Position numbers and translations under genes: made by a program. Source: Halonotius roseus (GTDB lineage: Archaea; Halobacteriota; Halobacteria; Halobacteriales; Haloferacaceae). Taken from it: DNA of 64,000 nucleotides. Each line of letters starts with the position of its first letter. Positions within the stretch are counted from its first letter, which is position 1. Where the stretch lies: the NCBI RefSeq assembly GCF_006861655.1, contig NZ_SESI01000001.1:818328-882327 (forward strand), in the 5' to 3' direction. The notes under the pieces were generated by a model. The model did no database searches and was not told the DNA's origin. It saw only the letters and a list, made by a program, of their open reading frames with translations. Below are positions 33,631 through 40,975 of the stretch, piece after piece.

Positions 33631-33828
33631 CTACCGAACCTTCAGCGCGTAGCTGCCGGGGTTGCTGACGTTCATCTCGGTGGCGATCTCGCTTTCCTCG
33701 GGGTGGGTGATGATGACGTAGCCGGCCCAGTCCTCCGTGAGACTAGAAGAGCCGCAGTTCTCACAGGTTTGGCTGTCGGCCTCGTTGACAAAGTGACACT
33801 CCCGACAGGCCAGCCGGTCGGCCGCCAT
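33631..33828 (-). CDS. spt4: transcription elongation factor Spt4 / RNA polymerase subunit E''
   Basis: 65 residues with a four-cysteine zinc ribbon, CRECHFVNEADSQTCENCGSSSLTEDWAGYVIITHPEESEIA, exactly the archaeal RpoE''/Spt4 form. With Spt5 it binds the clamp of RNA polymerase to aid elongation. Its stop is immediately before the next gene and its start abuts rpoE1 without a gap, so the operon is tight. Confidence 0.95.
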   Translation of the reverse strand: MAADRLACRECHFVNEADSQTCENCGSSSLTEDWAGYVIITHPEESEIATEMNVSNPGSYALKVR

Positions 33829-37586: not shown

Positions 37587-37694
37587 GTATGGCTCGTCGG
37601 CGTCGACGTAGGCCAACGATTTCTACCGTTCGTCGGTGTCGGCGTAAGCCGACGAGTTCTATCGTTCGTCGGCGTCAACGTAGGCGTCGACGAG
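37587..37694. repeat. 3 x 36-bp in-register repeat echoing the Bat-like gene 3' end
   Basis: Copies at 37587-37622, 37623-37658 and 37659-37694. The last is the true end of the minus-strand regulator (DAYVDADER then stop). The next copy downstream encodes, in the same frame, SSAYADTDER then stop, and the third LAYVDADEP. The period of 36 bp preserves frame, so read-through of the first stop would append a similar peptide. Confidence 0.9.
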
Positions 37695-39632
37695 TTTGCG
37701 CTGGGCAGCCCGGAGGTGTTGGTGGAACGTCTGGCGGGTGATATCCATCGTTTCAGCGATCTCTGTGCCGTCGACCGGGCGTGGCCACTCGAAGTAGCCG
37801 TTGAGCGCGGCGGCCTCCAAAGCCTCCTGTTGGCGGTCGGTAAGTCGCTCGTCGATTTCGGCGGTGAACTCGTTGAGCTGGCGGGTGTGACGCTCACACT
37901 GGGTGCGCGCCCGGAGGTCAACGCCGTCGTACTGCTCGCCAAGCAGCTCCAGCAACGACCGCACGTCTCGATCCGGTGGCGTCTCGACGGTGAGTACCGC
38001 GCCGTCGGCTGTCGCCGTGATGCCGGTCACAACCGCACCCTGATCGGCCAACAGCCCGGCCGGCGTGGTCGTCTCGACGGTCACCGCGATTGTCCGATCG
38101 GTGTCGGTCGCCGAAACGGTGCGAGCGTCGGTCACAAACGACAGCGATTCCAGCTCGGCGGTCGGCACCGTACAGGATTCGGCGGCGAGATACCACTCGT
38201 GGCGACCCTCGCCGGCCCGTGTTGTCCCGACGCGTTCGACCGGCGTTCCGAGGGTGTCGGCGATCTGCGACAGCGAGACGCTGGGGTCGCGGATATCGAT
38301 CTGGAGCTCGGTGACCTGGTCGGTCGTCAACACCTGCGCTGTTTCGGCGGCGTGGATCCCGTTGGCGATCATCGTCCCGAGCGACGCGATGACCGTCTGT
38401 TCGCGGTCATCAAGGGTGTCGCCGTCGGTCGCATACACGCCGAGATATCCGTACCGGCGATCGCCATAAGACAGCGGGACGACCAACAGCTGTTCGGCGT
38501 CAGCCATCTCGGGGGTCAGCTCGCCGTCGGCACAGGCCGAACACCGCCGTGGCTCGTCTGCCGCGATCGCCTCGCGGATCGGGGCCGCCAGCTCCGCGCG
38601 TGGGATCGACGACGGCGGGGAACAGCCGCTGCTGGCGGCGATCGTGAACGTCTCGCCGTCGACACGGCCGATCCAGCCGGCGGTGTACCCCGGCTCGGCG
38701 GCGATGGCTTCACAGACCTGGTGTTCGATCACCTCGCGGTCGCTGGCGTCGATGAGCACGCCGGAGACATCGCTGAGCAGCCCATCGATCCGATCGAGGA
38801 GGCGGCGGAGCGTTTGGCGGTGCTGGCTGAGCTTCTCGGCGCGCTCCTCAGCGAGCTCCATGGCCTCCCGGCGGTCGGTCACATCGATCTGAAAACCGAC
38901 GTAGTGGGTGACCTCGTCGTTCTCATCGAAGATCGGGGCGATCGTGAGCTCGTTCCAAAACGGTGTGCCGTCCTTGCGGTAGTTTCGCAGCTCGACGGTC
39001 GTCGGCTCCTCGTTTGCGATCGCCGCCGCGAGTCGCTCTTTTGTCTCCGAGTCGGTTCCCAACCCCTGGAGGAGACGGGGGTTGCGGCCGAGCATCTCCT
39101 CGGTGTCGTAACCGGTGAACTCACCCCAGGTGTCGTTGACGTAGACAAGCGGGTTATCCGCAAGGTCGGGATCGGTCAGGCTGACACCGATCGGGGCGGC
39201 CTCGATCGCCCGCTGGAGCTCCGTCGGCGCGGGTTCGTGGCCGGAGATATCCTGTGGTGACTGGCCGTCGCCGCCGGCCGACGACGGCAACGCCGCGATG
39301 AGCTGCTCGGGTGTGTCCGCACCGTTTTTGTGGACATACCGGTCAACGTCGGTGTCGAACGACGGCGAGAGCTCACCCTCGTCGACATCGGTCAGCAGGA
39401 TGAACGGTAGCTCCGGGGCAAGCTGGCGGACAGCCGACCGCAACGCAAGCCCGTCGTCACCCGGGAGGGCATACTCGCTGATGAGACAGTCGAAGGATGC
39501 CGTCCCGATCATCCCGAGGGCGGTCGTGGCGGTCTCGACGGTCTGTACCTCACAGCCGGCGGCCGCAAGCGCGTCGGTCAGCCGGTCTCGGTCATCGGAG
39601 CTGTAGACCGCCAGCACACGCAGCGCGGACAT
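37659..39632 (-). CDS. Bat-like transcriptional regulator, REC-PAS(LOV-like)-GAF-HTH_10
   Basis: 657 residues divergent from halorhodopsin. A receiver-like domain (1-120) has DCLISEYALPG, with Glu53 where the phospho-acceptor Asp should be. A LOV-like PAS domain (about 135-255) contains GRNPRLLQG, in which Pro185 replaces the Cys of the GRNCRFLQ motif used for flavin adducts; the flanking NYRKDGTPFWNELTIAPI is retained. A GAF domain (about 280-440), a BAT-type middle domain and a C-terminal HTH_10 (LTDRQQEALEAAALNGYFEWPRPVDGTEIAETMDITRQTFHQHLRAAQRKL) follow. Bacterio-opsin activators of this build control rhodopsin genes; control of the adjacent gene is inferred. Confidence 0.88.
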   Translation of the reverse strand: MSALRVLAVYSSDDRDRLTDALAAAGCEVQTVETATTALGMIGTASFDCLISEYALPGDDGLALRSAVRQLAPELPFILLTDVDEGELSPSFDTDVDRYVHKNGADTPEQLIAALPSSAGGDGQSPQDISGHEPAPTELQRAIEAAPIGVSLTDPDLADNPLVYVNDTWGEFTGYDTEEMLGRNPRLLQGLGTDSETKERLAAAIANEEPTTVELRNYRKDGTPFWNELTIAPIFDENDEVTHYVGFQIDVTDRREAMELAEERAEKLSQHRQTLRRLLDRIDGLLSDVSGVLIDASDREVIEHQVCEAIAAEPGYTAGWIGRVDGETFTIAASSGCSPPSSIPRAELAAPIREAIAADEPRRCSACADGELTPEMADAEQLLVVPLSYGDRRYGYLGVYATDGDTLDDREQTVIASLGTMIANGIHAAETAQVLTTDQVTELQIDIRDPSVSLSQIADTLGTPVERVGTTRAGEGRHEWYLAAESCTVPTAELESLSFVTDARTVSATDTDRTIAVTVETTTPAGLLADQGAVVTGITATADGAVLTVETPPDRDVRSLLELLGEQYDGVDLRARTQCERHTRQLNEFTAEIDERLTDRQQEALEAAALNGYFEWPRPVDGTEIAETMDITRQTFHQHLRAAQRKLVDAYVDADER

Positions 39633-39750
39633 GCCAACCGATTGGTATCGAACGGCTAAATAGCTACGCCAACTGGCTGACGCCAGCGGTTTTGGTCAGC
39701 ACAGCACAAACGGTGGTGAGCCGCGAAAGACTAACGAATTGGATAAAATG

Positions 39751-39780
39751 ATTGGCGATAGCCCAATTGATTTTAGTATA
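39751..39780 (+). promoter_or_regulatory. halorhodopsin promoter and upstream symmetric element
   Basis: A TATA-like TTTTAGTATA at 39771-39780 lies 26 nt before the ATG at 39806, so the transcript is nearly leaderless. Directly upstream is an imperfect palindrome ATTGGC-GATA-GCCCAAT at 39751-39767, a candidate activator site, by analogy with the UAS next to the bop TATA box. Confidence 0.5.
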
Positions 39781-39805
39781 CTCCGTGTCATAGTACAGAC
39801 GGATT

Positions 39806-40642
39806 ATGCTAGTCCCCACAGCAGCTTCGGCACCGGCAGTCGCATTGACAACCGATTTTACTCAGGCTGAGTTGTTTACACAGATCGCCGGGAACGTGTC
39901 GCTGTCGGCCTCATTTTGGCTCAATATCGCGCTGGCCGGGGTTGCGATTCTCCTCTTTGTGTATATGGGGCGGAACGTCGCCGACTCACGCGCACAACTG
40001 ATCTTTGTGGCGACGATGATGGTGCCGCTGGTGTCGATCTCTAGCTACACCGGCCTCGTCTCGGGGTTGACGGTAAGCGTCATCAGTGTCCCGTACCCCG
40101 GCGGTGGCTCCGAGGAGGTGCTCATCATGTGGGGCCGGTATCTCACATGGGCGCTGTCGACGCCGATGATCCTCATCGCCCTCGGGTTACTAGCGGGAAC
40201 GAACCTGACGAAACTGTTCACCGCCGTCGTGATGGATATCGGGATGTGTATCACCGGGCTGGCTGCCGCGTTGACCACCTCCTCGCTGCTGCTGCGGTGG
40301 TTCTGGTATCTGCTCAGCTGTGCGTTCTTCGTGGCCGTTCTCTACGTGCTGCTCGTTGAGTGGCCCGCGGACGCACGCGAGGCCGGCACAGCCGAGATCT
40401 TCGGGACACTCAAAACACTGACCGTCACCCTGTGGCTCGGCTACCCGATCTTCTGGGCGCTCGGCTCTGAGGGGTTGGCCATCCTCACGACGACACAGAC
40501 CTCGTGGGCCTACAGCCTGCTGGATGTCGGCGCGAAGTACATCTTCGCGTTCCTCCTGCTGCGATGGGTCGTTGCCAACCAGAACGTGATCGGCAACATC
40601 GCGTCGGGATCGCTCGGTGCGGCGACAGCGGGAGCCGACTAA
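39806..40642 (+). CDS. hop: halorhodopsin (inward chloride pump)
   Basis: 278 residues, seven helices. GRYLTWALSTPMILIALGLL carries Thr at the bacteriorhodopsin Asp85 position, Ser at 89 and Ala at 96, the TSA signature of light-driven anion pumps. The Schiff-base lysine is in LLDVGAKYIFAFLLL, with the counter-ion Asp preserved four residues earlier. Sequence segments such as GTNLTKLFTAVVMDIGMCITGLAAALTTSSLLLRWFWY are close to known HR proteins. It imports chloride using retinal and light. The Bat-like regulator lies divergently upstream. Confidence 0.96.
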   Translation: MLVPTAASAPAVALTTDFTQAELFTQIAGNVSLSASFWLNIALAGVAILLFVYMGRNVADSRAQLIFVATMMVPLVSISSYTGLVSGLTVSVISVPYPGGGSEEVLIMWGRYLTWALSTPMILIALGLLAGTNLTKLFTAVVMDIGMCITGLAAALTTSSLLLRWFWYLLSCAFFVAVLYVLLVEWPADAREAGTAEIFGTLKTLTVTLWLGYPIFWALGSEGLAILTTTQTSWAYSLLDVGAKYIFAFLLLRWVVANQNVIGNIASGSLGAATAGAD

Positions 40643-40744: not shown

Positions 40745-40975
40745 ATGGCTGGACGATACGGTGAACTGGACTACTCGGTTCTCACGAAACGCGGCTTTCT
40801 CCTCGGGGTCGCGCTGTTTGCGATCGGTGCCCTCGGTGAGTTGGGGCTGGCTGCATCCGGGCTCTCGGTGCCTGACTGGGAGCGCGCGCTACTGTTCGAT
40901 CTTGAATTGCTTGGGATCCTGATCGGGTTGCTGTCGCCGTTTGTGTTCGGCGTGCTGTTGCCACTGACCGAGTAA
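40745..40975 (+). CDS. small membrane protein (DUF7860-like)
   Basis: 76 residues, two helices, from the ATG at 40745 (MAGRYGELDYSVLTKRGFLLGVALFAIGALGELG) to FVFGVLLPLTE. The pattern recurs among haloarchaea and I tentatively match it to DUF7860. A TTTTATCG box about 25 nt upstream suits a leaderless promoter. The halorhodopsin gene lies 100 nt upstream in the same direction but with its own promoter. Confidence 0.7.
   Translation: MAGRYGELDYSVLTKRGFLLGVALFAIGALGELGLAASGLSVPDWERALLFDLELLGILIGLLSPFVFGVLLPLTE

Follow-up and report, generated by a model that had tools for sequence, protein, structure and literature searches.

Low-oxygen induction of bop in Halobacterium salinarum requires the opsin-gene activator Bat, which works together with Brz and is thought to bind a UAS that exists in the bop promoter. 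Like the protein described here, Bat of H. salinarum has a REC-PAS/LOV-GAF-BAT-HTH_10 architecture and a LOV domain that lacks the cysteine (GANHRFLQG). Galperin et al. described the REC domain of Bat as divergent and its role as obscure.

The closest system studied biochemically is the Bat protein of Halorubrum (Yee et al., 2015; PMC4682037), so a cysteine-less Bat LOV domain is already known. The purified Halorubrum domain, termed LOV*, binds FAD, FMN or riboflavin; as expressed it contains modest amounts of flavin, which it binds more weakly once reduced, and it shifts conformation on chemical reduction. Owing to a nearby tryptophan, it undergoes photoreduction at a rate nearly two orders of magnitude below that of cysteine-less VVD, and the additional replacement of this residue (W172) by Phe makes the domain readily photoreducible (PMC4682037). 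Yee et al. called Trp172 unconserved, and raised the questions of a possible descent of LOV photoreceptors from redox sensors and of which input, light or redox, Bat responds to (PMC4682037).

Locus and domain organization

The window, that is, the whole stretch of 64,000 nucleotides analyzed in this study, contains a bat-type regulator gene and a divergent hop gene 173 bp apart, both of which were confirmed at the positions given by an earlier sequence-only reading of this DNA. The features are as follows.

37659..39632, minus strand: bat-type regulator gene, 657 aa, REC-LOV-GAF-BAT-HTH_10 (Pfam domains; AlphaFold2 pLDDT 83.5)
39288..39632, minus strand: degenerate REC, residues 1-115 (Pfam Response_reg E 1e-9, structure, column counts)
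38874..39224, minus strand: LOV-type PAS domain, residues 137-253 (46-47% identity to YtvA LOV)
39063..39089, minus strand: GRNPRLLQG motif, residues 182-190 (alignment to YtvA, clade column counts)
39078-39080, minus strand: Pro185 codon at the position of the adduct cysteine (YtvA alignment)
39126..39128, minus strand: Trp169 codon, equivalent to Trp172 of Halorubrum Bat, which quenches the excited state of the flavin (column counts; quencher role from PMC4682037)
39474-39476, minus strand: Glu53 codon at the receiver Asp position (structure and column counts)
38352..38741, minus strand: GAF_2 domain, residues 298-427 (Pfam)
37863..38321, minus strand: BAT domain PF15915, residues 438-590 (Pfam)
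37689..37844, minus strand: HTH_10 DNA-binding domain PF04967, residues 597-648 (Pfam)
39633..39805, no strand: bat-hop divergent intergenic region, 173 bp
39806..40642, plus strand: hop, halorhodopsin (chloride pump), 278 aa (Pfam PF01036 E 1.6e-48, T-S-A triad)

The regulator belongs to the Bat family by its matches to PF15915 (96.6 bits; cut-off 25.8) and PF04967 (69.7 bits; cut-off 23.1) together with GAF and PAS domains; Pfam places Response_reg at residues 15-111 and PAS/LOV at about 138-253. The helix C T-S-A triad in a protein of the bacteriorhodopsin family identifies hop as a halorhodopsin gene. Directly downstream of hop, a 76-aa membrane-like protein of family DUF7860 (PF25259) is encoded (40745-40975, plus strand); it is also present in the loci of Halonotius aquaticus and H. 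pteroides (92%), and the remaining loci examined showed none close to their opsins.

The BAT of Halorubrum 'hochstenium' has the same receiver, LOV*, GAF and HTH layout as the window protein, with Pro at the adduct Cys position and a Trp located 16 residues before it in both (W172/P188 and W169/P185, respectively). Most Halorubrum members either have bop within a few kb on the upstream side or lack a nearby opsin gene, whereas the neighbor in the window is hop. The H. salinarum protein has His rather than Pro, Phe rather than Trp and Val at the receiver Asp position.

Relatives and the cysteine position

Of the 392 genomes of the class that were searched, 86 contained close relatives; together with a named scan, this yielded 120 distinct proteins. 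The nearest named relatives of the window protein are those of H. aquaticus (79%), H. pteroides (76%) and H. terrestris (62%), which makes it very probable that the window comes from a Halonotius species. At the LOV Cys position, the aligned set contains Pro in 59 proteins, Ala in 1, Cys in 57 and His in 2, a count that omits one truncated protein (L182). The Pro/Ala proteins form a single clade of 61 members including L182 with one origin in the tree, and all column counts given below for 60 members likewise leave out L182. The clade covers Halonotius, Halohasta, Halorubrum, Halovenus, Natronococcus, Halobiforma, Halalkalirubrum and Natronocalculus. Since the lineages just outside it (L055/L058 and L153-L156) keep the Cys, the unrooted tree suggests that the residue was lost within a Cys-bearing family. 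GANHRFLQG proteins from Halobacterium-type genomes (L210 and L219), including Bat of H. salinarum, are placed in another part of the tree and represent a second, independent loss. The genome that we take to be H. salinarum was assigned by a 100% bop match to the H. salinarum sequence.

Cys-type Bat-like regulators (Natrialbaceae, Haloarchaeobius, Halovenus carboxidivorans and others) contain the same core domains and are often found beside bop or hop. They differ from the window protein in keeping the adduct Cys and in having Phe or Tyr at the Trp169 position, and are therefore probably real blue-light sensors. Some genomes encode both a Pro-type and a Cys-type Bat (L135 with L177; L051 with L112), which suggests separate roles.

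Throughout the family, members adjoin hop, in divergent or tandem orientation, or bop. A divergent hop occurs in Halonotius, Halohasta, Halovenus and one Halorubrum. A link of the Cys loss to hop rather than bop is ruled out by the occurrence of both Cys-type members beside hop (L055, L058 and L062-L064) and Pro-type Halorubrum members near bop. The truncated L182, encoded beside hop in Halohasta salina GSL13, matches only from residue 285, and its N-terminal half appears to be broken or frameshifted.

Flavin pocket, Trp169 and receiver domain

The motif GRNPRLLQG aligns without gaps to GKNCRFLQG of YtvA, the nearest PDB match (phmmer E 7e-33), with Pro185 on Cys62, and thus occupies the place of the photoactive GxNCRxLQ motif. 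The LOV part of the AlphaFold2 model superimposes on the YtvA LOV domain with a TM of 0.90 at 46% identity, and on isolated LOV structures with a TM of about 0.90-0.95. Fold and flavin pocket are therefore common to the window protein and YtvA-type bacterial photoreceptors (46-47% identity, TM 0.90), but YtvA makes a cysteinyl adduct, which the window protein cannot, as the sequence-only reading had recognized from the motif. Chance or a sequencing error at Pro185 is ruled out by Pro in 59 of the 60 clade members (Ala in one) and by the Cys retained in three further LOV proteins that this genome encodes. Another LOV-like PAS domain of this genome (C1:27350-27724) has Leu at the Cys position (GENLRLLQG).

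With its LOV residues kept and its Cys replaced, the window domain is a LOV* domain as defined in PMC4682037, and by likeness to its Halorubrum relative it is plausible that it binds flavin and changes conformation on reduction. Our preferred reading, held at slightly better than even confidence, is that the window protein is a Bat-type opsin-gene activator in which the LOV domain, formerly a sensor of blue light, has become one of flavin redox state. Redox sensing as such is a plausible and already published idea for the Halorubrum type (PMC4682037).

The main competitor, to which we give about half that weight, is an integrated light/redox sensor, in which blue light at low oxygen photoreduces the flavin to the neutral semiquinone and thereby generates the same signal as chemical reduction. 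VVD and YF1 without Cys still signal by photoreduction, which Yee et al. favor for Bat (PMC4682037), and Bat has a part in the light induction of bop in H. salinarum. However, this induction also needs Brz and Brb, and Bat there has Phe. In its wild-type form, the Halorubrum domain, which shares Pro and Trp with the window protein, is barely photoreduced, and the variant also carrying Trp to Phe responds (PMC4682037). Only four of the 117 LOV columns (S151, W169, P185 and L229) hold a residue that is at least 95% fixed among Pro/Ala members yet rare among those with Cys, and at the W169 position the aligned set has Trp in 60 of 60 clade members versus Phe or Tyr in 57 of 57 Cys-type relatives. 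Hence the residue described as unconserved by Yee et al. (PMC4682037) is invariant in the entire Cys-less clade, which weakens the photoreduction route and favors dark redox sensing. A caveat on this argument is that the two changes, to Trp and to Pro, go back to a common origin, and their pairing counts as a single evolutionary event. An obligate link of Cys loss to Trp is ruled out by Bat of the genome assigned to H. salinarum, which has His with Phe; that the Cys was lost there with Phe retained, so that Trp is not needed for the loss, counts against our preferred reading.

Less probable still is that the LOV domain no longer senses flavin in the cell and serves as a dimerization or structural module, with input through GAF or BAT. 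This would accord with the loss of the Cys and of the equivalent of the phosphate-binding YtvA R79, which is absent from the window protein (56 of 60 clade members have Ala, Ser or Gly there, and Ala also occurs in 20 of 57 Cys-type members), and with the modest flavin content and weaker binding of the reduced Halorubrum domain (PMC4682037). A degenerating pocket would look different, however: the equivalents of YtvA N61, R63, Q66, N94, N104 and Q123, all flavin-contact residues, are present in the window protein and in 60 of 60 clade members. In mean identity within the clade, HTH (84%) and LOV (71%) are the two best conserved domains, above REC, GAF and BAT, which average 50%. Because of the invariant pocket and this high conservation, the LOV domain of the clade is, judged by its sequences, not decaying. 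As regards flavin occupancy in the cell, the R79 loss in most of the clade and the modest flavin in the purified Halorubrum domain are points against the preferred reading.

Flavin redox sensing, as the sequence-only reading had proposed, stands as the leading reading, and the flavin contacts are conserved. The idea had already been put forward and partly tested on this type of protein from Halorubrum (PMC4682037). The further claim of the sequence-only reading that signaling proceeds without light chemistry does not follow automatically, as Cys-less LOV domains can photoreduce, and it is the invariant Trp169 that argues for it.

In the receiver, Y10/S11 replace the acidic pair and Glu53 replaces the phospho-acceptor Asp at the end of strand 3 (residues 49-53 in the AlphaFold2 model), as had been noticed from the sequence, with T81 and K102 kept; it is hence not a phosphorylatable response regulator. 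Across the clade, the acidic pair position is mostly His-Pro. The proposal of a Glu53 that imitates phosphorylation of the receiver, so that the regulator is always active and acts on hop, is highly improbable and fails as to the phosphomimic: Glu occurs at position 53 in 48 of 60 clade members and hop is divergent in the cases named above, but the acidic pair is missing, position 53 is Gly, Ser, Thr or Ala in the other members, Glu is common in Cys-type relatives too, and the window hop promoter lacks the element described below. The receiver probably serves as an interaction module that does not depend on phosphorylation.

Opsin upstream element and likely target

Upstream regions of Bat-linked opsin genes have in common the consensus ACCnnACTAGTnnGG(T), located some 43-57 bp ahead of the start codon, and the ACCnnACTAGTnnGG element is found approximately 50 bp upstream in the majority of hop and bop genes linked to Bat. 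When no more than one mismatch is allowed, ACTAGTNAGG occurs in 25 of 69 opsin upstream regions versus 0.9% of shuffles, and a weight matrix built from 35 training sites gives p<0.01 near -50 in 54 of 69 regions, a count that is partly circular. The element can be written as the near-palindrome ACCnnACYRGTnnGGT, and we take it to resemble the UAS for Bat in the bop promoter of H. salinarum.

Neither strand of the bat-hop intergenic region (39633..39805) has a significant match to the element; in the 120 bp next to the hop start, the highest score on the hop strand has p 0.74. The weight matrix likewise did not find it upstream of hop in H. aquaticus (p 0.77) or H. pteroides (p 0.16); it is present in H. 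terrestris and Halohasta. A genome-wide pattern search of the 2.56-Mb window genome for ACCNNACYAGTNNGG returned a sole exact match (C2:715026-715040), situated 43-57 bp before the start of bop. This site, excluded from matrix training, scores 20.3, above every shuffle, and bop of H. aquaticus also carries the element. Because the element is missing at hop and exact at bop, the likelier target of the window Bat, as predicted from promoter sequences, is the unlinked bop, a proton-pump gene that lies on another contig and would be regulated in trans. The adjacency on which control of hop had been proposed is real, whereas direct control of this neighbor is doubtful, its promoter lacking the element that the unlinked bop has.

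A short ACTGGTTGG-like sequence recurs directly before the bat start codon in the window (39630-39655) and at several divergent loci, and may be an autoregulatory half site. Although Bat of H. salinarum works with Brz, a search around bat and bop in the window organism revealed no zinc-finger partner resembling Brz, which counts against the preferred reading. The Brz search returned one small zinc-finger ORF (33631-33828), presumably Spt4.

If the window protein is a flavin redox sensor, falling oxygen would leave the bound flavin reduced and protonated at N5, and the change would be passed on by Gln248 and the post-domain helix (252-295) to the GAF, BAT and HTH domains of a dimer. The dimer would then act on ACCnnACYRGTnnGGT, the likely target here being bop on the other contig, and the neighboring hop, having apparently lost the element, may be uncoupled from Bat. 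A fuller evolutionary scenario, which we offer tentatively and hold to be somewhat less probable than its alternatives taken together, is that one Bat branch turned from a blue-light sensor into a dedicated dark redox sensor by the paired changes Cys to Pro, which abolished the adduct, and Phe/Tyr to Trp, which quenched photoreduction, both kept since, and that the Halonotius branch later lost its grip on hop and kept bop.

To the Halorubrum work, this study adds the conservation of the Trp, an analysis of the receiver, a survey of the upstream element and the doubt cast on hop as a target. The invariant Trp/Pro pair offers a direct test of light versus redox input in Bat. An element common to hop and bop promoters widens the idea of a Bat regulon from bop to hop in several haloarchaeal families. 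The window hop lacks the element despite its adjoining bat, so the loss of the element there illustrates that the target of such a regulator can be misidentified from gene neighborhood alone.
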